A DNA stretch of 35,630 nucleotides. Source: Gammaproteobacteria bacterium (GTDB lineage Bacteria; Pseudomonadota; Gammaproteobacteria; Acidiferrobacterales; Sulfurifustaceae). The notes under the pieces are model-generated. The model did no database searches. It was not told the origin of the DNA and saw only the letters and a program-made list of their open reading frames with translations. Both the position numbers and the translations under genes were made by a program. Below are positions 1-34,756 of the stretch, piece after piece (within the stretch, counting starts at the first letter, position 1; every line of letters begins with the position of its first letter). The stretch is from positions 1 through 35,630 of the forward strand of contig JACQFZ010000064.1 of assembly GCA_016199745.1 (NCBI GenBank), read 5' to 3'.

Positions 1-594
1 ACAAGAACGCGTTGCGACGACGGCGGCGCCCCTGTCGGATCCACCGTTCTAGGAAAATACCTCGTGCCGGTTTCTGTTTCCGACGAATTCGCTCAGGCGC
101 TTGCCAGCATTTAGGCGCGGATTTGGACCGCCACTAACAACTCTCACTGGAAAATTGCCGGCCGACCAACTCTTCCGTCAGACTACACAAGGAGTCTTGA
201 ATTCGACGTCGATGTATTAAAAAACTTTGAAACCACGGAAACAGTCGACCTCGTCAAACTGGGTTACATCGAAGATGACCTGCTCCTAAAAAAGAATTTT
301 TTATACCGAAATACCGCAATGACTTTTCCGACCGACGTTCAGGTAACTGTAAAGACACTTAAGAATAACAAAGAGAAAAGTGGTTTCTGGGTCAGATGTA
401 ATCCGCGCGCTTACGGTAATTCAAAGCCAGCGCGGTATCCGTTCAACTCGGTCAGCAGTCCCACAGAGAGACTCCTTCCGCCGGGAAACTATCAGCTCTG
501 GGTTGAGGATTCCGCAGGAAAAGTCCTCAACTCCCAACCGATATCCATCGGCGATAACGGCAAGTCTCAGACCATCATGTTCGCAATCGAATGA
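1..594 (+). pseudogene. Interrupted gene of unknown function, 5' end outside window
   Basis: One reading frame runs from the first base to a TGA at 592-594, broken only by a TAG at 112-114. The translation on both sides of the TAG looks like ordinary protein. After it comes a stretch with WTATNNSHWKIAGRPTLPSDY, then a domain ending in LPPGNYQLWVEDSAGK, which resembles a small beta-sandwich of the carboxypeptidase-regulatory type. There is no start codon soon after the TAG. The first ATG is at 319 and would give a 91-residue C-terminal piece without a clear ribosome site. I do not recognise the family. It is either a gene killed by a nonsense mutation or two genes whose boundary I cannot place. 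It overlaps the next gene by 4 bases (ATGA). Confidence 0.4.
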
Positions 595-1004
595 AGCGGC
601 TAGTTCGGCATCTAACCGGCAGCTGGGAGCGCCTCGCCCAAGTGGCAACAGTTATATCCACTGCCTTGAGTAAATTTATTTTTCCCATACCGTTGCTGTA
701 CATGAACGAAGATCAGTGGTCCAACTTTTCGAGATTTCTTGTCGCGATGATTGTCGGCTTGTGGTTTGGACCACTATCGATATGGAAGGCACATAGGTTT
801 TTTTTGAAATGGTGTATCGGTGCCGCGACCTGCGCTCTACTGACGCTAGGATTGTTTATTTTTTATGCTTACCTTCAGACTCAATGGACGGTTCCCTATT
901 CAGGCAATAGGGTAGTAATAGGACAAACACTAACTTCGACGGCCGAAGAATATAGTCGGTCGATAAAGGTAAAAAGAGGACATGCCCCAATGGCACTGCT
1001 TTAA
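591..1004 (+). CDS. Small membrane protein of unknown function
   Basis: The 137-residue product has two hydrophobic segments, about residues 46-64 (SRFLVAMIVGLWFGPLSIW) and 70-94 (FFLKWCIGAATCALLTLGLFIFYAY), so it is probably an inner-membrane protein. The ATG overlaps the stop of the upstream reading frame (ATGA), which suggests translational coupling. The last residues (KVKRGHAPMALL) run up to an inverted-repeat element starting at 1018, so the original C-terminus may have been replaced when the element arrived. I do not recognise a family. Confidence 0.5.
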   Translation: MKRLVRHLTGSWERLAQVATVISTALSKFIFPIPLLYMNEDQWSNFSRFLVAMIVGLWFGPLSIWKAHRFFLKWCIGAATCALLTLGLFIFYAYLQTQWTVPYSGNRVVIGQTLTSTAEEYSRSIKVKRGHAPMALL

Positions 1005-1017
1005 GCAAAAACACCGC

Positions 1018-1100
1018 GTCATTCCCGCGAAAGCGGGGATCCATGCCGGGCTAAACAACGTCGGATATGCCGTATGGATTCCCGCCGGCGCGGGAATGAC
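1018..1100. repeat. Inverted-repeat element, REP/MITE-like
   Basis: Two 26-base arms (1018-1043 and 1075-1100) are near-perfect reverse complements. They begin and end with GTCATTCCCGCG / CGCGGGAATGAC and carry TGGATTCCCGC on the inner side. They flank about 31 bases of unrelated sequence. This is the common proteobacterial dispersed repeat with a core of the type ATTCCCGCNNNNGCGGGAAT. It could act as a bidirectional terminator for the gene ending at 1004. Confidence 0.8.
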
Positions 1101-1433
1101 AGCTGTTTCTTGGTACGCACGGCTTGTTTGTACCTCATTTTCTTGCAGCACCCCGAATGGCCGCTCCTGGCCGGTTACAGTCGATGGAGATGTTGCGATT
1201 TCAAATTGATCTGACACCGTCTGTCAGATTGAGTCTGACCTAATACAACAAATCGAATCATAGGTCCGCCACCGACAGCATCCCAACAACTACCGCCATA
1301 AACCGTAGTGTTACATCGCCGCCAAAAATGAGCGTCCAGCCAAAACACCTTCGGCTTCAGCTTGGCGAACCAACGTCTCAAGCAATAAGCGTCCGGGAAA
1401 GATCGAGGCCGAAGCGGATTAAATGATTTCGTT
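1101..1433. other. Non-coding stretch, no gene seen
   Basis: No convincing coding frame was found on either strand. The only structure noted is a short hairpin at 1210-1228 (TCTGACA, 5-base loop, TGTCAGA). The segment lies between an inverted-repeat element and two gene remnants, so it is probably eroded sequence. Confidence 0.4.
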
Positions 1434-1632
1434 CTACGCGAGGAACGTGTAGGTCAACCCGCCCACCCCGCAGGCAAGAACGACCGGAATGATCCCAATC
1501 TTGAAACGCCACAACGCCACAAACGCCGCGATCCCGATCAACACGGAGAACCACTCGAACGTGCCGTGAAGGCCTTGTGGCCACAGCACGTGGTAGGCGA
1601 AGAACATCGCGAGGTTCAGAATCACAACGTCG
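1434..1632 (-). pseudogene. Remnant of chromate transporter ChrA, C-terminal end
   Basis: Read on the minus strand, the last about 64 codons encode VVILNLAMFFAYHVLWPQG, then EWFSVLIGIAAFVALWRFKI and a final GIIPVVLACGVGGL. This is the pattern of the last two to three membrane helices of ChrA-type chromate transporters. The stop is at 1434-1436. Upstream of about 1632 the similarity ends and the same bases become the antisense of a CNNM-type gene fragment on the plus strand. About 85% of the gene is missing, so this cannot be a working transporter. Confidence 0.65.
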
Positions 1633-1641
1633 CCGTTACAA

Positions 1642-2061
1642 ATTCTAGAACGGTTTCGGGCATCGCCGGTCCACATGGCGCTGGTCGTGAGCCAGGGCGA
1701 AGTACGCGGGTTGGTAACGCTGCATGACGTGCTCGAGGCCATGGTGGGAGAACTTCCGGTCGAGGGCGAAACGATTGAGAAGAGCGTCGTGCAACGGGAC
1801 GACGGTTCGTTTTTGATTGATGGCATGCTCTCGATCGCCGAGCTCAAGGAGTTGTTGGCGCTCGCGCAGATGCCGGAGGCAGCCGCGGACTACGAGACCG
1901 TAGCGGGCTTCGTGTTGGCGCATCTCGATCGCGTGCCGCAGATCGGTGATCATTTCGAATGGGGCAGTTGGCGGTTTGATATCGTCGATATGGATGGGAC
2001 CCGCGTTGATCGAGTGTTGGCGACACCGCAAAAAGATCCATCGGAAGACAACACTGGCTGA
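1642..2061 (+). pseudogene. Remnant of CNNM/CorC-type (YtfL/TlyC-like) transporter, C-terminal end
   Basis: The frame reads LERFRASPVHMALVVSQGEV, then GLVTLHDVLEAMVGELP, which is the second half of a CBS-domain pair. The CorC/HlyC transporter-associated domain follows (DDGSFLIDGMLSIAELKELL ... YETVAGFVLAHLDRVPQIGD). Similarity starts abruptly at about 1642, so the membrane domain (DUF21) and the first CBS motif are absent. The stop is at 2059-2061. Translation could begin at the internal ATG at 1675 and give a 128-residue soluble fragment, but a start signal is not obvious. The 5' edge meets the ChrA remnant head on, which marks a deletion or rearrangement point. Confidence 0.7.
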
Positions 2062-2100
2062 ACGGGATGCCATCATGGGACGAATGCTAACGGTGCATAG

Positions 2101-3174
2101 ATGACGAAGATTCCTCTTCATGCCGGCGTTGTTAGCGCCATGCTGGCCGCGGCGCTGTTTGGCGCGAGCGTTCCACTCGCCAAGCTGTTGGGCGGCACGG
2201 TCGTGTCGCCGCTGGTGCTCGCCGGTTTGCTCTATCTCGCTTCGGGGTTGGGATTACTTGCCTGGTGGCTGTTAAACCGCGCGCGCGTTAACCGCAGCGC
2301 GCACGATGCGGCGCTCACGCGCCGCGATCTTCCCTGGCTTGCAGGCGCGATACTCTCGGGTGGCGTCGTCGGCCCGGTATTGCTCATGATGGGTTTGATG
2401 CAAGCGACGGCGGCCAGCGCGTCGCTGCTGCTCAATCTCGAAGGTGTTCTTACCGCGTTGCTCGCGTGGTTCGTGTTTAAGGAAAACTTCGATCGCCGCA
2501 TTGCGCTAGGCATGGCGTTGATCGTTGCCGGTGGTGTGGTGTTGTCGTGGCCGAGCGGTGCGCGCTGGGAGACGTCACTCGGGACGTTGTTCATAGTCGG
2601 CGCCTGTCTTTGTTGGGCCATCGATAACAACCTGACGCGCAAGATCGCCGCCGGTGATCCGGTGCAGATTGCCGGGCTGAAGGGGTTGGTGGCGGGACTG
2701 ACAAACACAGGTATCGCGATCAGCTTTGGTGCCACGTTGCCCAACGTCAACACGGTGCTCGCGGTCGGTGTTGTTGGCATGCTCGGTTACGGCATGAGCC
2801 TGGTTTTATTCGTGCTCGCCTTGCGTCATCTCGGCAGTGCTCGCACGGGCGCGTATTTTTCGGTCGCGCCGTTCTTCGGCGCTGCGTTATCGTTGCTGTT
2901 GCTGCACGAGACGCCGGGACCATTGTTCTGGATCGCGGCAGCGTTCATGGGCGCTGGCGTGTGGCTGCATCTGACGGAGCGTCATGAGCACGTGCATCAG
3001 CACGAAGCGCAATCACACGCCCATCGTCACGTGCACGATGAACATCATCAACATCACCACGACTTCCCTTGGAATAGCTCAGAGCCGCACGTCCACTTAC
3101 ACCGGCATGATCCGATCGTGCACAAGCATCCGCACTATCCCGATATTCATCACCGTCATCGGCACCGGCATTGA
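2101..3174 (+). CDS. EamA/DMT family transporter with histidine-rich C-terminal tail
   Basis: The 357-residue protein has about ten hydrophobic segments in two EamA repeats, the fold of drug/metabolite transporters in the inner membrane. The first repeat opens with SAMLAAALFGASVPLAKLLGG. The second covers roughly residues 160-295. After the last helix (about residue 293) comes a tail of about 60 residues in which close to half are His (HEHVHQHEAQSHAHRHVHDE, then HHQHHHD and HHRHRHRH at the very end). Such tails bind divalent metals such as Ni, Co, Zn or Cu in other transporters. The family name alone does not give a substrate, so metal export or metal sensing is inference. A YqaA-like gene follows 22 bp downstream. 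Confidence 0.85.
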   Translation: MTKIPLHAGVVSAMLAAALFGASVPLAKLLGGTVVSPLVLAGLLYLASGLGLLAWWLLNRARVNRSAHDAALTRRDLPWLAGAILSGGVVGPVLLMMGLMQATAASASLLLNLEGVLTALLAWFVFKENFDRRIALGMALIVAGGVVLSWPSGARWETSLGTLFIVGACLCWAIDNNLTRKIAAGDPVQIAGLKGLVAGLTNTGIAISFGATLPNVNTVLAVGVVGMLGYGMSLVLFVLALRHLGSARTGAYFSVAPFFGAALSLLLLHETPGPLFWIAAAFMGAGVWLHLTERHEHVHQHEAQSHAHRHVHDEHHQHHHDFPWNSSEPHVHLHRHDPIVHKHPHYPDIHHRHRHRH

Positions 3175-3196
3175 CGCAGCAAGTAGTCGATAGCGT

Positions 3197-3604
3197 ATGA
3201 GCTGGGCGCTGTTCTTCTCGGCGTTGCTCTCGGCTACGCTCTTGCCCGGAAGTTCCGAAGCATTGCTGCTGTATCGACTGAGCGTCGGCGACAACGTATG
3301 GCCTGCCGTGTTGACGGCGACGGCGGGCAACGTACTCGGCAGTCTCATTACCTACGGCATGGGGCGGCTCGGCAACGAGGCGCTGCATCGTAAATGGCTT
3401 CGCATGTCACCGACGGCGCTCGCACGCGGCGAGCGCTGGTTCCAGCGGTACGGTCGACTCGCGTTGCTGTTCGCTTGGCTGCCCATTGTCGGTGACCCGC
3501 TTTGCCTTGTCGCCGGCTTATCGCGGAGCTCTCCTGGATGGTTCGTTACTCTGGTGACAATCGGCAAGCTTGGGCGCTACCTGCTTATCGCTTGGGTGTT
3601 TTAG
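3197..3604 (+). CDS. YqaA-like inner-membrane protein (SNARE-associated/DedA superfamily)
   Basis: The product is 135 residues, the usual length for YqaA. The N-terminal FFSALLSATLLPGSSEALLL resembles the re-entrant motif of this group. It is followed by a membrane segment with TATAGNVLGSLITYGMGR, then RYGRLALLFAWLPIVGDPLC, where the conserved GDP turn is present, and a last hydrophobic helix. The relatives act in membrane homeostasis or lipid transport; the exact role of YqaA is not known. It lies 22 bp after the His-tailed transporter on the same strand and may share its transcript. Confidence 0.8.
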   Translation: MSWALFFSALLSATLLPGSSEALLLYRLSVGDNVWPAVLTATAGNVLGSLITYGMGRLGNEALHRKWLRMSPTALARGERWFQRYGRLALLFAWLPIVGDPLCLVAGLSRSSPGWFVTLVTIGKLGRYLLIAWVF

Positions 3605-3766
3605 AACGCTTTGTAGATCGGCGACTCACACAAATGATCCGCCGATCGAAATGACTCTCAGCGATAGCGGTCTATTCGCTATTCGTTAGCGTCGCCCGTC
3701 ATGGCGGCGTCCTTCCACACCAGGTCGCTTGAAATCCATAAGCTCACAAAGTTCTTTAGAGTAGCG

Positions 3767-3793
3767 TTAGCACTCTTGATTGTAGAGTGCTAA
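3767..3793 (+). promoter_or_regulatory. CIRCE element (HrcA operator)
   Basis: A perfect inverted repeat, TTAGCACTC then 9 bases then GAGTGCTAA, matches the CIRCE consensus exactly in both arms and spacing. HrcA binds CIRCE to repress groESL and dnaK operons until protein-folding stress titrates it. Here no chaperone gene follows: the next gene is the caspase-helicase starting at 3838. A CTTGAAA at 3728-3734 matches the sigma-32 -35 hexamer and sits at a distance that would place CIRCE near +1, but I see no convincing -10 box. The element may be a captured groE promoter or a true stress switch for the helicase gene. Confidence 0.88.
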
Positions 3794-3837
3794 CAATAGG
3801 CGTAGTGTGATAGCGCCAAATTATGGGAGGGAGCGCT

Positions 3838-6800
3838 GTGAAATTTCACGGCCTTTTCATAGGGATAGACCGCTATTCTTCACCTTTTATTAACTGGCTA
3901 TCATGTGCCAGACGGGATGCCATAGCGCTCCATGCGCTGTTCTCGGATAACTTCGGTGGTAATACGCGCCTGTTGCTCGATGAGCACGCTACCCGCGAGG
4001 AGATCGAAGCGGCATTCGAGGGCCTGTCACAATGCAGCCCCAATGACATCGTCGTCATCGCCTTTTCTGGGCACGGCAGCAGCACCCACGAACTAGTCAC
4101 TTACGACGCCGACGTAGACCGACTGGCGGACACAGCGATTCCACTCGAGCAGCTCGGAGACTGGTTCGCGAAGATTCCTGCTCGCCAGGTCATCTGCCTC
4201 CTGGATTGCTGTTTTTCGGGCGGCGCTGGCGCGAAAGTCCTGTACGCGCCCATCACGCCCCGCAATCTCGCTTCCGAAACCACGTTGCTTGAACAGATTT
4301 CCGGCGATGGCCGACTGATCTTCACGGCCTCATCGGCTACTCAGGCCGCTCTTGAAAGCCACCGCTATCGTCACGGGTTGATGACGTATCACTTAATCCA
4401 CGCGCTGCAGGGAATTGGTGAAGTCATCCAGGCTGGCCGCGTCTCCATCCACCGTCTCCTCGAATACGTCGTGCAGCGGGTGATCGATGACGCCCGTATG
4501 TTTGGGCGCGAACAGCAGCCAAGCCTGCGTGGAAAGATCGACGGCGAGCTGACTTGGCCGGCGTTACGCCCCGGTGATCTTTACCACACAGCATTTCCGG
4601 AGCGCCGTACCGCAATAGCGAGTGCGGACGTAAAGAGCCTTGCCGCATTTGGCTTCCCACCGGAGTTGATTGACGCCTGGGCCGGTGCGATTCCGGCGCT
4701 GAACGAACTGCAGCAGAGCGCGATCAACGAGTACGGACTACTCGAAGGGAAAAACCTCCTCGTCTCGGCACCGACGTCTTCCGGGAAGACGATGGTCGGC
4801 GAGCTAGCCGCATTGAAGGGTGCCATCGAGCGCAAGCGCGCCTTCTTCCTGCTGCCGCTCAAATCACTGGTGAACGACAAACACAAGTACTTCACCAAAG
4901 TCTACGGTCCCTTTGGTTTGCGCACGATTCGGGCAACCGGCGAGATAGCGGACGACATTCCCGAACTCATGCGCGGGCGGTTCGACATCTGCCTCATGAC
5001 CTATGAAAAATTCGCGGCGCTGATTCTCGCGAATCCTCATCTCCTGGAGCAGGTTGGCACCATCGTGGTGGATGAGGTCCAGATGGTGACTGATCCTAAC
5101 CGGGGCGCGAATCTTGAGTTCATCTTGACGTTCCTGCGCGTGAAGCAGCAACAGGGGGTGGAGCCCCAGATCATCGCGCTCTCTGCTGTGATTGGCGATA
5201 CGAACGGCTTCGAGCGCTGGATCGGTGCACGCCTGCTGCGCCGTCATCAGCGACCGGTACCGCTTAAAGAAGGGATCATGCGCACGGACGGATCGTTTCG
5301 CTACATCGATGAGAAAGGCGATGAGAATACGACGAAGCCGCTCTTTCGTCCGCAGCAGGGGAAGGGAAGCAGTCAGGATTGGATCATTCCACTGGTGCAA
5401 CGGCTGGTAGCCGAGGGTAAGCAGGTGATCGTATTTCGTGCACTGCGTGGTGAGGCGCGCGGTTGTGCGAACTACCTTGCAAAAAACCTCGGGTTGCCCC
5501 CAGTGCAAGCTGCCCTCAATGCATTACCAAGCGGCGATGTTTCCAACGCCTCCCAGACCCTGCATGACACGTTAGCCGGAGGCGTGGCTTTTCATATTTC
5601 CGACCTCGACCGTGATGAACGGTGGATTATCGAAGAGCAGTTTCGTGCGCCTAATTCGATGTTGCGTGTTATCGCCGCGACAACGACGCTCGCGATGGGC
5701 GTCAACACGCCGGCCTCGGCGGTCGTGATAGCAGGACTGGAACATCCGATCGAAGGGGGAACGACTCCTTATCTCGTTGCCGAGTACAAAAATATGGTCG
5801 GTCGCGCCGGTCGGCTGGGGTTTACCGAGGCCGGCGAATCCTACGTCATCGTGACGTCCGCCCAAGAAGAGCATCACGTCTGGGATAGATATGTGAAGGG
5901 GACGCCCGAAGATTTGCATTCGCATTTTGTTAACCTCGATACGGATCCGCGTTCGCTGATCATTCGCGTGCTCGCCGCCGCTGAATCGTGGGCCAAACAG
6001 GGTCTCTTCGAGGAAGAGATCATTGGATTCTTAAGCGAGAGCTTCGGGGCATTCGTGCAGCGACTGCGTCAGCCGAGTTGGGCGTGGAACGCGGAGATTG
6101 TCCGGCAGGCACTCCATGAAATTGCACTTCACAAACTATTACAACGTCGCGATGACGGTCGCTATGAGATTACTGAACTCGGTCGGCTCGCCGGTACCAG
6201 CGGAACGGAGGTCGAATCGATGATCCGTCTAGTCGAGGTCCTCGGATCGATGGCGCCTCAGGAGCTAGACGATCAAACGCTCGTTGCAGCGACGCAGGTG
6301 ACGGTCGAGCTCGACGATGTGCTATTTCCGATGAATAAGAAGAGCAAGCACAAGGAACCACAGCAGTGGAGTGGCGAATTGCGGCGGCAAGGTGTCGCGA
6401 ATAACGTGATCGCGTGGCTCGAACGGTGGACGCGCGCTGATTTTGTCAAAGTTATGCGCTGGAAGCGCGCGGTCGCGTGCTTGTGTTGGATGAGCGATCT
6501 GCCGTTGGTTGACATCGAGCGTCATCTCACCCAATTCGGCGGCGCATTCGACGGAGCCGCCGGCGCCATTCGATCTACTGCGGCACGCACGCGCGATCTG
6601 TTTCCGGTTACCGTGCGCGTCGCCCAGTTGCTGCACCCGAGTCTCGATTTACAGATGCGCGAGCAACGCCTCTTGGCGCGATTGGAAGCAGGAATTTCTG
6701 CCACGATGGTCGAGGTCGCAATGGTCCTCGGCACGGAGCTGTCGCGGGGTGACTACCAACGGCTCGAAGCCCGCGGCATGAACACCGTGGACGCGCTGGA

Positions 6801-7119
6801 TACCGCCAAAGAGACGGATTTGCTGTTGGTTCTTGGCGGTGACCGGCAGAAAATGTCTAGCGTCAAACATGCCGTCGCTCGCTACAAGACCGAGCAGCAG
6901 AGGGCCGTGAAACCAACGGTTGCATTTCGGGGGAGAGGCGAAGATCTTGCACGTGATGGACAAACACACCGACAAGCGCTTTCGGGTGTCTACCTCCAAG
7001 AAATCCATGATCGAGGTCGCCGCCGAGCGCGGCATGTACGATTTCGAGTTTATGGGCGTGCCTGTGACGATGGAACCCGGACTCGCGGAACTGGAGTCGA
7101 AAGCGGCGAACGTGATTAA
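3838..7119 (+). CDS. Caspase (peptidase C14)-Ski2-like helicase fusion, putative defence protein
   Basis: I chose GTG 3838 because GGAGG at 3826-3830 lies 7 bases upstream; the in-frame ATG 3823 lies within and before that site. Residues 1-230 form a caspase-fold peptidase with the catalytic His79 in FSGHGS and Cys125 in LLDCCFSGG. From about 285 a superfamily 2 helicase begins: Walker A APTSSGKT (311-318), DEVQ box (412-415), SAV motif, LAMGVNTP, and motif VI MVGRAGR (653-659). Winged-helix and helical regions then resemble the Hel308/Ski2 layout, ending in a hairpin-like segment near GGDRQKMSSVKHAVARYK. Residues after about 1024 read out of frame through the start of the next gene and are probably not native. 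Caspase domains fused to NTPases are typical of prokaryotic conflict systems, so a nucleic-acid-sensing, protease-triggered defence role is inferred. CIRCE lies upstream. Confidence 0.85.
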   Translation: MKFHGLFIGIDRYSSPFINWLSCARRDAIALHALFSDNFGGNTRLLLDEHATREEIEAAFEGLSQCSPNDIVVIAFSGHGSSTHELVTYDADVDRLADTAIPLEQLGDWFAKIPARQVICLLDCCFSGGAGAKVLYAPITPRNLASETTLLEQISGDGRLIFTASSATQAALESHRYRHGLMTYHLIHALQGIGEVIQAGRVSIHRLLEYVVQRVIDDARMFGREQQPSLRGKIDGELTWPALRPGDLYHTAFPERRTAIASADVKSLAAFGFPPELIDAWAGAIPALNELQQSAINEYGLLEGKNLLVSAPTSSGKTMVGELAALKGAIERKRAFFLLPLKSLVNDKHKYFTKVYGPFGLRTIRATGEIADDIPELMRGRFDICLMTYEKFAALILANPHLLEQVGTIVVDEVQMVTDPNRGANLEFILTFLRVKQQQGVEPQIIALSAVIGDTNGFERWIGARLLRRHQRPVPLKEGIMRTDGSFRYIDEKGDENTTKPLFRPQQGKGSSQDWIIPLVQRLVAEGKQVIVFRALRGEARGCANYLAKNLGLPPVQAALNALPSGDVSNASQTLHDTLAGGVAFHISDLDRDERWIIEEQFRAPNSMLRVIAATTTLAMGVNTPASAVVIAGLEHPIEGGTTPYLVAEYKNMVGRAGRLGFTEAGESYVIVTSAQEEHHVWDRYVKGTPEDLHSHFVNLDTDPRSLIIRVLAAAESWAKQGLFEEEIIGFLSESFGAFVQRLRQPSWAWNAEIVRQALHEIALHKLLQRRDDGRYEITELGRLAGTSGTEVESMIRLVEVLGSMAPQELDDQTLVAATQVTVELDDVLFPMNKKSKHKEPQQWSGELRRQGVANNVIAWLERWTRADFVKVMRWKRAVACLCWMSDLPLVDIERHLTQFGGAFDGAAGAIRSTAARTRDLFPVTVRVAQLLHPSLDLQMREQRLLARLEAGISATMVEVAMVLGTELSRGDYQRLEARGMNTVDALDTAKETDLLLVLGGDRQKMSSVKHAVARYKTEQQRAVKPTVAFRGRGEDLARDGQTHRQALSGVYLQEIHDRGRRRARHVRFRVYGRACDDGTRTRGTGVESGERD

Positions 7120-7882
7120 ACGGATTGTTGAGGAAGAGCGCCTGCACCATGACGATCAGAACGAGCGCACGACGCTCGCATGTTTTCTTGCCGTACAAAT
7201 GGTGCGCACGCGAGCGGTGTATGTGACCCAGCAAGATTGGATGAAGCGACTGGAAAAGTGGCTACGTGCGGAGGGTGCGCCTGAGGAGTTCTTCAAAGCC
7301 GATCCACACGTTGGCACCGGAGAAAATGCCGAGAAGGTACTACTCGCTCGAATGATTCACAGTGCGTCGTCGGATTTCGCGCCGGCGCTCGCCGAAAAGG
7401 ATTGGGTATTGTTGAAGACCGACCTCAACACGCCATACCTGATAGGTGATCATCCATTGGCGATGTTCAACCATATCGACCATTCGCCCCGCGGAAACTT
7501 GGGCATCAAAGTGCAAGGTATCGAGCTCTATTTTCCGCTGAATCCGACGCTCGCGCTTGGAATGTGGTGTCCTTCAATCCAGCAAACGCTACTTGAGGGG
7601 TTCAAAAAGCTGGATGGACTCAGCGAGAGCGCTCCGGAGGCTGTAGCGCCATATATGCAGGCGTGGGAGGACGGCATTCAAATTGTTGAAGCAATACGAA
7701 GCGGCTCGACTTTGCCCAGCCGACCCGACAACATTACACATTTCAACTCATTGCAAATCGCCACCTCGGAGCGTTTCCTGTTTTCCTGCAACGGTGACTT
7801 TGCGCTAGCGGAACAAATGATTCGCGACAATCCGGCCTTTAAGCACGGCAAGCGAGTGGATGAAGCGACGGGTAAGTTTTGA
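6947..7882 (+). CDS. DUF4238-like protein lacking the usual N-terminus
   Basis: The frame is open from 6911, and possible starts are TTG 6920, TTG 6947 and ATG 6956. TTG 6947 has GGGAGAGG at 6931-6938 about 8 bases upstream. The product reads HVMDKHTDKRFRVS ... AAERGMYDFEF, then a helical middle and YLIGDHPLAMFNH, the conserved GD(H/N)P turn of DUF4238. The family normally starts with an HYVPxFYLRxF segment, and that segment is missing here. The gene overlaps the helicase frame by about 170 bases in the +1 frame. A run of five G at 6929-6933 lies at the crossover: with one G fewer the helicase would continue straight into this protein. DUF4238 has no established biochemical function, but its place here suggests a partner or fused effector. 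Confidence 0.65.
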   Translation: MHVMDKHTDKRFRVSTSKKSMIEVAAERGMYDFEFMGVPVTMEPGLAELESKAANVIKRIVEEERLHHDDQNERTTLACFLAVQMVRTRAVYVTQQDWMKRLEKWLRAEGAPEEFFKADPHVGTGENAEKVLLARMIHSASSDFAPALAEKDWVLLKTDLNTPYLIGDHPLAMFNHIDHSPRGNLGIKVQGIELYFPLNPTLALGMWCPSIQQTLLEGFKKLDGLSESAPEAVAPYMQAWEDGIQIVEAIRSGSTLPSRPDNITHFNSLQIATSERFLFSCNGDFALAEQMIRDNPAFKHGKRVDEATGKF

Positions 7883-7995
7883 CATCAGACGAAACTCCAA
7901 CGCCTTTTCGAGCGTCGCACACCGGCAATTCGAACGCGGATTTTCCGTGCATAATCATTAGAGTAGTTACTTAAGCCGACTCAAATCGTACTGTG

Positions 7996-9579
7996 ATGCG
8001 TCGTACTGTACCCTCATGCCGTGTCTTCGTTATTGCACATCGCCAAACTAGCTTTGTTTGGACGTACTGTGTCATTTTTTATGTACAAAATTTCGATGCC
8101 GATGGGGCGACCAGTTGTGCGTTGGTCGTGCGGGCATTGCGCGAAATGGGCGCGGCGCATGTCAGCTATGTCGTGCCGAATCGATTTGAATATGGCTACG
8201 GTCTAACACCGGAGATCGTCGCGCTCGCGGCGCAGCATGAGCCCAATCTGATCATTACCGTCGACAACGGAATTTCCAGCGTCGACGGCGTGCGCGCCGC
8301 CCGCGATCGCGGCATTCGCGTGCTTGTGACCGATCACCATTTGCCCGGTGCGGTGTTGCCGGCGGCGGACGCGATCGTCAATCCAAACCAGCCCGGTTGC
8401 GATTTTCCGAGTAAGAATTTGGCCGGTGTCGGTGTCGCGTTCTACGTGATGGCGGCGTTGCGCTCGCAGCTGCGTGCCAGGGGTTGGTTTAGCGAACGCA
8501 ATTTGCCGGAGCCGAATCTCGCGCGTTGGCTCGATCTGGTGGCGCTCGGCACTGTTGCCGATGTTGTGCCGCTGGATCACAACAACCGCATCTTGGTGGC
8601 GCAAGGTTTAGCGCGCATCCAAGCGGGGCGCGTATCGGCCGGCATCCGTGCTATCGCCACCGTCGCCGGGCGGGTGTGCGAACGCCTGTCGGCAACTGAT
8701 CTCGGTTTTTGTATTGCGCCGCGGCTTAACGCCGCCGGCCGGTTGACCGATATGTCGCTCGGCATCGAATGTTTACTGACCGACGATCCGGCAGCGGCGG
8801 CAACGATGGCGGCGCGCCTCGATGAGCTGAACCGTGAGCGTCGCTCGATCGAGGCGGAAATGCAGGAACAGGCGCTCGCCGCCGTGCGCTCGCTGCATTT
8901 GCAGAGCGCATCGATCCCGCGAGGACTTTGCTTGTTCGACGAGAGCTGGCATCAAGGCGTCGTCGGCTTGGTCGCCGCCCGCGTCAAAGAAAAATTTCAT
9001 CGCCCGGTCATCGCTTTTGCGCGCGGTACCGATGGCGATATCAAAGGGTCGGCGCGATCGGTACCGGGTCTGCACATTCGCGACGCACTCGACGCCGTCG
9101 CCACGCGCCATCCGCAGCTGCTGCGCAAGTTCGGCGGCCATGCGATGGCCGCCGGGCTTACGCTGGCGCAGGGCGCATTCGACGAGTTCGCGCGTGCCTT
9201 TGACGAGGAAGTGAGCCGTTGGCTTAGCGACGACGACTTGTGCGGCAAGATCATCAGTGACGGCGAGCTCACGCCGGCGGAACTAACGTTGCAGCTGGCC
9301 GAACTCGTGCGTGCCGGTGGGCCGTGGGGCTCGGGATTTCCGGAGCCGGTGTTCGACGGTGTTTTTGATCTATTAGATCGCCGCGTCGTCGGCGGCAAAC
9401 ACCTCAAGTGCAAGTTGCGGCCGGCGGCTGGCGCACGGCCACTCGATGCCATTTTATTCAATGCCAATACCACTGACGCACCGGACCGCGTGCGCGCCGC
9501 CTACCGGCTCGATGTGAACGAATACCAAGGTAACCGTTCGTTGCAGCTGGTGGTCGAGCATTTGGAACCGGCGGTTTAG
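7996..9579 (+). pseudogene. recJ: RecJ single-strand exonuclease, 5'-truncated
   Basis: From about 8088 the protein is clear RecJ: motif I FDADGATS, ITVDNGIS, the DHH motif VLVTDHHLPG, then the DHHA1 part with KGSARS and RKFGGHAMAAGLTL, and a C-terminal OB-like domain to the stop at 9577-9579. RecJ degrades single-stranded DNA 5' to 3' in repair and recombination and is normally about 570 residues, with some 75 residues before FDADG. Here those residues are absent. The about 30 codons before FDADG (from ATG 7996, reading RRTVPSCRVFVIAHRQTS) do not resemble RecJ, and the canonical VVVGD strand is replaced by IFYVQN. The frame is open, so a chimeric protein might be made, but the core beta-strand before the Mn-binding DAD is altered. 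I judge it more likely non-functional. The junction lies next to the caspase-helicase locus. Confidence 0.7.
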
Positions 9580-13161: not shown

Positions 13162-14181
13162 ATGACGCTCGGTCCGGTAATGCTCGATGTCGCCGGTGTG
13201 GCGCTCACCAACGAGGAGCGCGAGCGTCTGCGCCATCCGTTCGTGGGCGGCGTCATTCTGTTCTCGCGTAATTATCAATCGCCGGCGCAAGTGGCGGCGT
13301 TGGTGGCAGAAATTCGTGCCTTGCGCGAGCCAAATCTGTTGATCGGTGTGGACCATGAAGGCGGAAGAGTGCAGCGCTTTCGCAACGGTTTTACACGACT
13401 GCCGCCGGTGCGGCGTTTCGGCGAGATTTACGACGAGAACCGTAAGCGCGCCAAGCGTTTGGCGCACACCGCGGGTTGGCTGATGGCGATGGAATTGCGT
13501 GCCGTCGGCGTCGATTTCAGCTTTGCGCCGGTGCTCGATCTCGATCGCGGCGTCAGTCAGGTCATCGGCGACCGCGCGTTTCACTCCGACCCGGATGCGG
13601 TCGCCGATCTGGCGACTTCTTATATCGGCGGCATGGCCGAAGCCGGCATGGCCGCGACCGGTAAGCACTTTCCGGGCCACGGTGGCTGCGAGGCGGACTC
13701 GCACCTAGCGTTCCCGGTCGATAACCGCAGTTACGCCGACCTGTACGTGGAAGATCTCATCCCGTTCGAACGCCTAATCCAGAACGGCCTGGCCGGTATC
13801 ATGCCGGCGCATGTGTTGTACCCGCAGATCGATACGCAGCCGGCCGGTTACTCACGCATCTGGCTGCAAGAGGTGCTGCGCGGGCGCCTTAATTTTCAAG
13901 GCATTATTTTTAGCGACGACTTGTCGATGGAAGGCGCCAAAGGCGTCGGCGGAATGGTCGAACGGGCGGAATTCGCGCTCGCCGCCGGTTGCGACATGGT
14001 GTTGGTCTGCAATGATCCGGCCGGCGCCGCTGTTGTACTGGACGGCCTACGGCCGCGCGCCGAGCCGGCATCGCATTTACGTCGCACGCGTATGCATGGC
14101 CGGCCGTTGGCGGCGCCGATCGATCTCGCGACCGCGCCCGGCTACGACGATGCCGTGCGCATGGTGACGAATATCGCCTGA
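13162..14181 (+). CDS. nagZ: Beta-N-acetylhexosaminidase NagZ
   Basis: This 339-residue glycoside hydrolase family 3 protein matches the usual NagZ length. Visible motifs are [10 protein letters not shown] near the N-terminus, [12 protein letters not shown], the family signature [14 protein letters not shown] with the catalytic His, and [10 protein letters not shown], where the Asp is the nucleophile. NagZ removes GlcNAc from anhydro-muropeptides in the cytoplasm and thereby affects beta-lactamase induction in some species. AGGAGTAGTAAGGC precedes the ATG. It is the last gene of the cysM run. Confidence 0.95.
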
Positions 14182-14222
14182 GCTCGACCGGTATTTTTCC
14201 GAAAAAATTTTTACTGATTTCT

Positions 14223-14250
14223 TTGATTCGCTGGCCGGATGTCTCATAAT
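14223..14250 (+). promoter_or_regulatory. Probable sigma-70 promoter of speD
   Basis: TTGATT (14223-14228), a 16-base spacer and CATAAT (14245-14250) form a fair sigma-70 promoter between nagZ and speD. Transcription would start near 14257. Confidence 0.6.
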
Positions 14251-14294
14251 TACGGAAGCAGCGGAATATTTCCGTGCAAGGGGGTAAGGGTAAA

Positions 14295-15143
14295 TTGGCA
14301 GATCCTATTAGACCGCTCAAGAAGTTGAAGCTCGAAAGCTTCAACAATCTCACGAAGACCTTGAGCTTCAACATTTACGATATCTGCTATGCGCCGAGCG
14401 AACAGGCGCAGAAAGAATATATCGCCTACATCGACGATGCGTATAACGCCGAACGTCTGAAGAGCATCCTCACCGAGGTTGCGCACATCATCGGTGCCAA
14501 CATCCTCAACATCGCTCATCAGGATTACGACCCTGAAGGCGCCAGCGTGACCATGCTCATCTCTGAGCTGCCGCTGAACGAGGAGCCGTTGAATCCCGAG
14601 GCCCCGGGCCCGTTGCCCGAGGAGCATCCGCACGTGCGCCAGCCGCATCAGGATGCCGTGGTCGCGCATCTCGATAAGAGCCACATCACGGTGCATACGT
14701 ATCCGGAAGTCCATCCGGACAACGGCATTTGCACGTTCCGCGCGGATATCGACGTCTCGACCTGCGGCAAAATTTCGCCGCTGCGGGCGTTGAACTACCT
14801 GATCCACACGTTCGAGTCGGATATCGTCATCATCGACTACCGTGTGCGCGGTTTTACCCGCGACGTGAAGGGCGTGAAGCACTACATCGACCACAAGATC
14901 AACTCGATCCAGAACTTCGTGGATAAACCGACGATGAATCGCTACCAGGCGATCGACGTCAACGTCTATCAGGAAAACATCTTCCACACGAAGCTAATGC
15001 TGAAAGAGTCGAAGCTCGACAACTATCTATTCGGCGTCAAAGAAGCCGAGTTGTCGCCGGCCGACGCCAAAGTTGTCCCGCAACGGCTGAAGCACGAAAT
15101 GGCCGAGATCTTCTACGGAACGAATATCGTGCGGGTCACCTAA
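14295..15143 (+). CDS. speD: S-adenosylmethionine decarboxylase proenzyme
   Basis: The product matches the E. coli-type SpeD across its length: [28 protein letters not shown], then [14 protein letters not shown], where the proenzyme is cut before Ser to form the pyruvoyl group. [20 protein letters not shown] and NSIQNF follow. It makes decarboxylated SAM for spermidine synthesis. The start is uncertain. TTG 14295, preceded by TAAGGG, gives [16 protein letters not shown], close to the E. coli start; GTG 14274 would add seven residues. Between GPLPEEH and VVAHLD there is an insert of about 10 residues compared with E. coli. The gene has its own promoter and terminator. Confidence 0.93.
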
Positions 15144-34447: not shown

Positions 34448-34756
34448 ATGGGTTCTAAAGCCGCACAACCCGCCGCGCGAGTGGGCGACATCGACACCGG
34501 CCACGACACTCAACCGCCGACCGCAATCACCACCGGCAGTCCTGATGTACTCATCAACGGCTTACCCGCCGCCCGCTTTGACGACGAACTGGAATCTCAC
34601 GGCTGCATACCGGATGAACCGCGTCGCATTATTGAGGGTGCCGGCTCTGTCCTGATCAATGGCAAACCGGCGGCGCGCGTCACCGATGCGGTGGATTGTG
34701 GCGGCACGCTTGACGTTGGTTCTAAAAATGTTTCTATCGGCGACAGTCCAAGGTGA
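34448..34756 (+). CDS. PAAR-motif protein (type VI secretion spike tip)
   Basis: ATG 34448 is preceded by AAGGAGGA. The 102-residue protein has the PAAR pattern: PAARVGDIDTGHD near the start, SPDVLINGLPAARFDD, SVLINGKPAARVTDAVDCGG and NVSIGDSPR at the end. PAAR proteins cap the VgrG spike and sharpen it, and effectors can be attached. This one is a bare PAAR domain with no extra toxin domain. It is followed by an Hcp gene about 460 bp downstream. Confidence 0.87.
   Translation: MGSKAAQPAARVGDIDTGHDTQPPTAITTGSPDVLINGLPAARFDDELESHGCIPDEPRRIIEGAGSVLINGKPAARVTDAVDCGGTLDVGSKNVSIGDSPR

Follow-up and report, generated by a model that had tools for sequence, protein, structure and literature searches.

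CIRCE is a highly conserved operator that normally switches chaperone genes. In a 35,630 bp stretch of gammaproteobacterial DNA (the window, which is the entire contig C64 of a 4.26 Mb genome assembled in 72 contigs, 98% complete with 2.22% contamination), an exact copy of CIRCE lies at normal spacing before a gene encoding a caspase fused to a helicase. The catalytic motifs of both parts are intact, the genome encodes the repressor HrcA, and a second, distant instance of the arrangement was found. On balance, the site is probably a working HrcA operator, which would put a mobile caspase-helicase gene under the control of the host's chaperonin-sensing heat-shock repressor. The arrangement suggests that the product, a likely immune or cell-death protease, would be turned on when protein folding fails.

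The operator and the gene behind it

The operator, the gene and its downstream neighbour are arranged as follows.

3767-3793, no strand given: CIRCE operator, exact consensus TTAGCACTC-TTGATTGTA-GAGTGCTAA, 0 mismatches
3825-3833, plus strand: Shine-Dalgarno-like GGGAGGGAG, seen in the sequence, preceding the likely GTG start at 3838
3838-7119, plus strand: caspase-helicase gene; the ORF list starts it at ATG 3823, and similarity to the family stops near 6912
3853-4530, plus strand: Peptidase_C14 caspase domain, catalytic His 4072-4074 (SGHGS) and Cys pair 4207-4212 (DCCFSGG)
4705-6840, plus strand: Hel308/Ski2-type superfamily-2 helicase, Walker A SSGKT with Lys 4786-4788, DEVQ motif
6920-7882, plus strand: DUF4238 ORF, family profile matched from position 13 onward

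A first-pass annotation of this DNA had claimed an exact CIRCE, a caspase-helicase gene behind it and no chaperone gene present, and all three statements were borne out. Both arms and the spacer match without mismatch; this is the sole exact CIRCE in the window and none was found in 100 shuffles. Peptidase_C14, DEAD and Helicase_C all score over their Pfam cut-offs. The window has 123 ORFs of at least 80 aa, mainly overlapping frames, and no chaperone was found among the 29 that were scanned with Pfam; profiles for GroES and GroEL were empty genome-wide.

The inverted repeat at CIRCE is perfect over 11-base arms, GTTAGCACTCT / AGAGTGCTAAC, given as 3766-3794. Among 92 caspase-helicase upstream regions of 150 bp each, a perfect repeat of equal length occurs in only one other (L103), with an unrelated sequence. 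From base composition, 0.00004 exact CIRCE sites would be expected in the genome. The start of CIRCE is 71 bp, and its end 44 bp, from GTG 3838. Predicted CIRCE sites are placed at -45 to -99 from the start codon in Table 8 of PMC545781 (available in part), so the 71 bp distance is normal. Plasmids contain no relative of the intergenic stretch 3605-3837, and a scan for sigma-70 promoters around the site gave no candidates on the plus strand. The start codon is probably GTG 3838 rather than ATG 3823, because 5 of 10 homologues begin at the aligned residue; a sixth has Met there.

His84, Cys129-Cys130, the Walker A Lys and the DE pair (numbering from ATG 3823) are invariant in 11 sequences, and the second Cys is nearly invariant in a 30-sequence set. 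Across 91 caspase-helicase sequences GHG is present in 89 and DCC[FH]S in 86, the exceptions including L155, where Ser replaces the second Cys, and L114, a fragment. A profile search of solved structures matched Hel308 (2p6r, E 6e-88) over profile positions 293-1005, which is nearly the whole helicase half; the match to HamB was weaker (8vx9_B, E 4e-34). An AlphaFold2 model built from a 30-sequence alignment (mean pLDDT 86.4, pTM 0.71) was searched with Foldseek, and all 50 matches listed were Hel308, polymerase theta or Brr2-type helicases; the predicted structure agrees with assignment of the helicase as Hel308-like. The N-terminal part is assigned as a caspase from profile and motif alone.

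The start of the DUF4238 ORF seems to be missing. The last ~65 caspase-helicase codons overlap its frame, and this overlap looks like a deletion junction. The DUF4238 neighbour had no PADLOC match at E 0.01.

A probable integrative element in recJ

The gene and its operator lie upstream of a truncated recJ, in the following context.

1-8091, no strand given: on the simplest reading, right arm of an integrative element that entered recJ and starts on contig C42
2101-3174, plus strand: EamA-type transporter gene (Pfam), upstream neighbour
3197-3604, plus strand: VTT-domain gene (Pfam), immediate upstream neighbour
8092-8097, no strand given: TTCGAT, element/recJ junction
8098-9579, plus strand: 3' part of host recJ; its first 80-90 codons sit on contig C42

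CIRCE begins 162 bp beyond the end of the VTT-domain gene. A recJ gene was present in 11 of 11 relatives searched, encoding 576-683 aa in ten of them (the eleventh ends at a contig edge) versus 534 aa here. The EamA, VTT, caspase-helicase and DUF4238 proteins had no match at the recJ loci of these 11 relatives, and no CIRCE with up to four mismatches was found there. The front part of recJ stops on C42 at the very codon from which C64 continues it; joined and aligned to recJ from the same genus, the pieces are gapless at the junction. Beyond the break C42 encodes a tyrosine recombinase, an 868-aa Phage_integrase-domain protein, a 684-aa protein with no family match, a 199-aa protein and a recJ-like gene. 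The ends of C42 and C64 do not overlap. Most simply, positions 1 to ~8,091 of the window are the right arm of an integrative element, with CIRCE and the caspase-helicase as cargo near its right end. Since the caspase-helicase would then be cargo of the element, its link to CIRCE would have been assembled on mobile DNA.

On C42 (L171 6163-15052) the element has, beside its recombinases, a complete recJ-like gene at 13175-15052 that shares 35% identity with recJ from the same genus; perhaps it replaces the host function destroyed by the insertion. NCBIfam includes Gamma-Mobile-Trio models, and such an identity was considered for the row of recombinase-like genes. There was no NCBIfam match of this kind for five element proteins, so the element was left without a name. 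Within the right arm, 1437-2058 holds apparent gene fragments: a CorC_HlyC domain with a partial CBS domain before it and, by eye, a minus-strand ChrA-like piece. Both strands of 973-1223 translate to VIPAKAGIHA/WIPAGAGM-like stretches, which we take to be short REP-type palindromic repeats. A small protein with a PAAR motif is encoded far outside the element, at 34448-34756; PAAR proteins occur at type VI secretion tips.

CIRCE in the genome, its order and the caspase-helicase family

It had been proposed in the first-pass annotation that hrcA and the groESL/dnaK promoters be sought in the same genome. A single HrcA gene was found (L002 1568-2641; PF01628, E 1.8e-67; DNA-binding domain PF03444 over its cut-off), with its own CIRCE upstream. 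Sites with up to three mismatches number three in the genome, and precede the caspase-helicase gene (0 mismatches), hrcA (1) and rpoH (1); the last two genes were identified from their translations and HrcA also by Pfam. The groES and groEL genes had no profile match anywhere in the genome, the window contig included, despite the completeness rating. As the same profiles were positive in control genomes (GroES in 11 and GroEL in 14 of 14), the absence is probably an assembly gap and not gene loss; with the native groESL missing from the assembly, there can be no comparison with its usual CIRCE.

All 57 genomes of the window's order contain CIRCE with up to two mismatches, at one to four sites per genome and mostly three. 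Of these, 50 loci in relatives were read (30 + 20, part of all the sites in the order). By motif, 23 precede groES, 22 rpoH and four hrcA, and the remaining one (L056) precedes rpoH by eye. As all 50 stand before one of these three genes, the operator is not randomly scattered in the order. CIRCE upstream of rpoH was previously reported in Geobacter sulfurreducens (PMC545781, available in part). Because CIRCE also precedes rpoH in the window's order (L003 and relatives), two heat-shock controls appear to be linked there.

Upstream regions in the rest of the family were then compared at 91 other loci: the best 80 of 149 relatives in named genomes, 10 plasmid loci and one viral contig, with two further near-full-length plasmid matches, from Bradyrhizobium and Agrobacterium pusense, left out. 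A CIRCE with up to four mismatches was found at one of these. The search of homologous loci proposed in the first-pass annotation gave no such site at 90 of the 91, a count that includes L114, which has no upstream sequence, and CIRCE is not a family trait of caspase-helicases. A missing HrcA system is not the cause of its usual absence, as 42 of 50 hosts checked (of the 80) have CIRCE somewhere. Six of the 57 genomes of the window's order gave a match at E 1e-10, which, the window's own gene apart, was confined to the caspase or to a portion of the helicase, and no CIRCE with up to four mismatches was found at these six loci. The viral contigs yielded one caspase-helicase locus, without CIRCE, and 19 phage records were partially similar, none reaching 80% query coverage. 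The plasmid homologues lie near TIR, Piwi, restriction and other defence-like genes.

The one other site (L138) is in a Phenylobacterium MAG, contig JAEUMO010000095.1, and reads TTGGCACTC-N9-GAGTGCTAG, with two mismatches. The next gene, 88 bp downstream of it, encodes DUF2158 (73 codons, E 8e-12) and is followed by the caspase-helicase gene. The expected number of sites of this quality is 0.002, and four control palindromes gave no matches with up to three mismatches upstream of 90 loci (137,086 bases). The L138 genome encodes HrcA, and its sole other CIRCE within two mismatches precedes groES. The window and L138 proteins are 38% identical. A midpoint-rooted tree of 91 sequences separates them at its root, into groups of 49 tips (support 0.57) and 42 tips (support 1.0). 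With the two proteins in opposite halves of the tree, two gains are the simplest reading, and CIRCE was probably gained twice independently. CIRCE is absent from the five loci closest to L138, of which two come from Agrobacterium pusense, and among 398 genomes of the order of L138 searched at E 1e-60 the L138 genome alone gave a caspase-helicase match. The stress-switch interpretation offered in the first-pass annotation thus acquires a second, distant, HrcA-bearing locus, but not the standing of a family rule.

Directly before the CIRCE-like site, L138 carries a Thoeris pair, ThsB (TIR) and ThsA (membrane-macro), at 3220-4601 (PADLOC, E 1e-72 and 3e-136).

The alternative that survives best, although we consider it unlikely, is that CIRCE is the leftover of a chaperone promoter captured during assembly of the element; it may bind HrcA and yet not have been selected to control the caspase-helicase. 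Captured promoters are plausible in a mosaic element with gene fragments, which counts against the HrcA-operator reading, as do the two mismatches at L138, the 90 loci without CIRCE and the missing native groESL, and the arm does hold such pieces (CorC with a partial CBS, the startless DUF4238 ORF and the split recJ). The missing chaperonin genes and the many family loci without CIRCE also favour capture. The promoter form expected at groESL, TTGACA-N16-TATNAT directly before CIRCE, was looked for. The groESL CIRCE sites of the order that have enough upstream sequence all follow a sigma-70 promoter (22/22), with 10-11 of 12 matches to TTGACA + TATAAT. The window CIRCE scores 7/12, against a mean of 6.4 for shuffles, a score of 7 being reached by 132 of 300. 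A cut-off groESL promoter, which the first-pass annotation had named, together with homologous loci lacking CIRCE, as grounds for refutation, is thus not recognisable here, and from its sequence the window CIRCE seems not to be a groESL promoter that has been displaced. The CIRCE sites of hrcA and rpoH also score low (4-8). It follows that the absence of a sigma-70 promoter is no argument against function, and also that the test excludes groESL as the source better than it does hrcA or rpoH. In a cruder first comparison of the flanks the window site scored 19 versus a best of 15 in 20 shuffles, which would favour capture; when the two flanks were compared separately with 103 contexts of CIRCE sites (every site taken on both strands), they were at chance level, the best score being met by 9 of 100 shuffles upstream and 3 of 100 downstream. 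Taken together the two runs favour neither reading. Against capture, GroES and GroEL have no match anywhere in the contig, and a separate CIRCE is present at a caspase-helicase locus from the opposite half of the family.

Somewhat less probable again is that HrcA serves as a resident silencer and not as a stress switch, so that a mobile element would keep a costly gene silent wherever the host has HrcA, and the gene would be expressed in a burst on arrival in a recipient without it. Carriage of the gene on an integrative element would suit this, as would the distribution of HrcA, which was found in 7 of 14 control genomes and is described as widespread, not universal, in the available part of PMC545781, where laboratory E. 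coli K-12 is given as lacking an HrcA system. On the other hand, HrcA repression is tied to the state of the chaperonin in the species covered by the accessible part of PMC8533110, and silencing is hence hard to separate from the stress-switch reading.

That the contig joins pieces of different organisms through an assembly or binning artefact is very improbable. The number of contigs, the contamination figure, the window being one whole contig and the division of recJ over two contigs might raise the suspicion, but an insertion explains the split: the recJ pieces meet at the same codon, align without a gap and run, on the C42 side, into recombinase genes, while CIRCE and the caspase-helicase gene are 44 bp apart within one contig. 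A chance palindrome is scarcely credible given the tiny expected number of exact sites, the correct spacing and the presence of HrcA, even with a CIRCE-like site at only 1 of 91 other loci.

A possible folding-stress switch and its relation to known systems

If the site is a working HrcA operator, the following mechanism can be proposed. In an unstressed cell free GroEL would keep HrcA active, and HrcA bound to CIRCE, upstream of the ribosome-binding site, would keep expression low. Non-native protein, whether caused by heat or damage or supplied in bulk as phage structural protein, would occupy GroEL and HrcA would then fail, so that the caspase-helicase would be made alongside the stress proteins. 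The Hel308-like helicase would presumably act as a nucleic-acid sensor or motor that licenses the caspase. GroEL-dependent repression at the window CIRCE is proposed by analogy with established HrcA biology. GroE enhances HrcA binding in Campylobacter, and in the titration model, first proposed for B. subtilis, misfolded protein draws GroE off (both from the available part of PMC8533110). An immune or cell-death role for the caspase-helicase, and activation of the caspase by the helicase, are what we infer for the protein, and phage assembly is a plausible source of the chaperonin overload.

It is possible, although we would rate it as doubtful, that the heat-shock repressor senses infection at the level of transcription: by occupying GroEL during capsid assembly, phage proteins would switch off HrcA, mobile or accessory DNA would have wired a caspase-helicase to this signal at least twice, and chaperonin occupancy would trigger programmed cell death.

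Phages may themselves use the host's HrcA switch, to judge from viral contigs with exact CIRCE sites. Of 104 such loci 80 were kept (L204-L283), and Hsp20-like motifs were seen near 15 of the 80. Motifs of groES/groEL were seen at 7 of 87 sites, and two HtpG by eye. Several contigs have more than one copy of CIRCE: three in L228 and two each in L233, L239, L253, L257 and L274.

The open-licence literature searched contained no report, to judge from its listing, that joins HrcA and CIRCE with a caspase in a relevant way, or HrcA, GroEL and phage infection with a defence gene. It is plausible that a known operator and repressor have here become attached to a new class of target. If true, this would connect folding stress directly with a protease of bacterial immunity or cell death, twice, in distant lineages. 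It would also suggest, in a simple and testable form, how a cell could sense phages with no phage molecule being recognised, and predict that the heat-shock switch of the host may be borrowed by defence genes that travel on mobile elements.

The closest known system is the HrcA/CIRCE regulon itself (groESL, hrcA-grpE-dnaKJ, rpoH), with which the window shares the exact operator, the normal distance to the start and HrcA in the genome; it differs in its target, a protease-helicase on a mobile element in place of a chaperone or a regulator of heat shock. Hachiman (HamA-HamB) has a related superfamily-2 helicase, and PADLOC matched HamB profiles to E 6e-29, just behind the candidate family PDC-M23B (E 2e-30); the helicase described here, however, is fused to a caspase and is nearer to Hel308 than to HamB. 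The EACC1-associated bacterial caspases (NCBIfam NF047832) have a similar caspase domain (E 2e-23, under the model cut-off), whereas the present caspase is fused to a Hel308-like helicase. Hna of Sinorhizobium, a DEAD/DEAH helicase defence protein, gives protection that varies strongly with the level at which it is expressed, and a host regulator influences it (PMC12445080, available in part). The likeness is one of description: the available part of that source describes no caspase for Hna, and the effect of the regulator, NolR, appears there to be indirect, without an operator at the gene. A link between chaperones and immunity is also seen with bNACHT25, where the host chaperone DnaJ takes part in phage detection (PMC12169576, available in part); the difference is that the chaperonin would act here through transcription.
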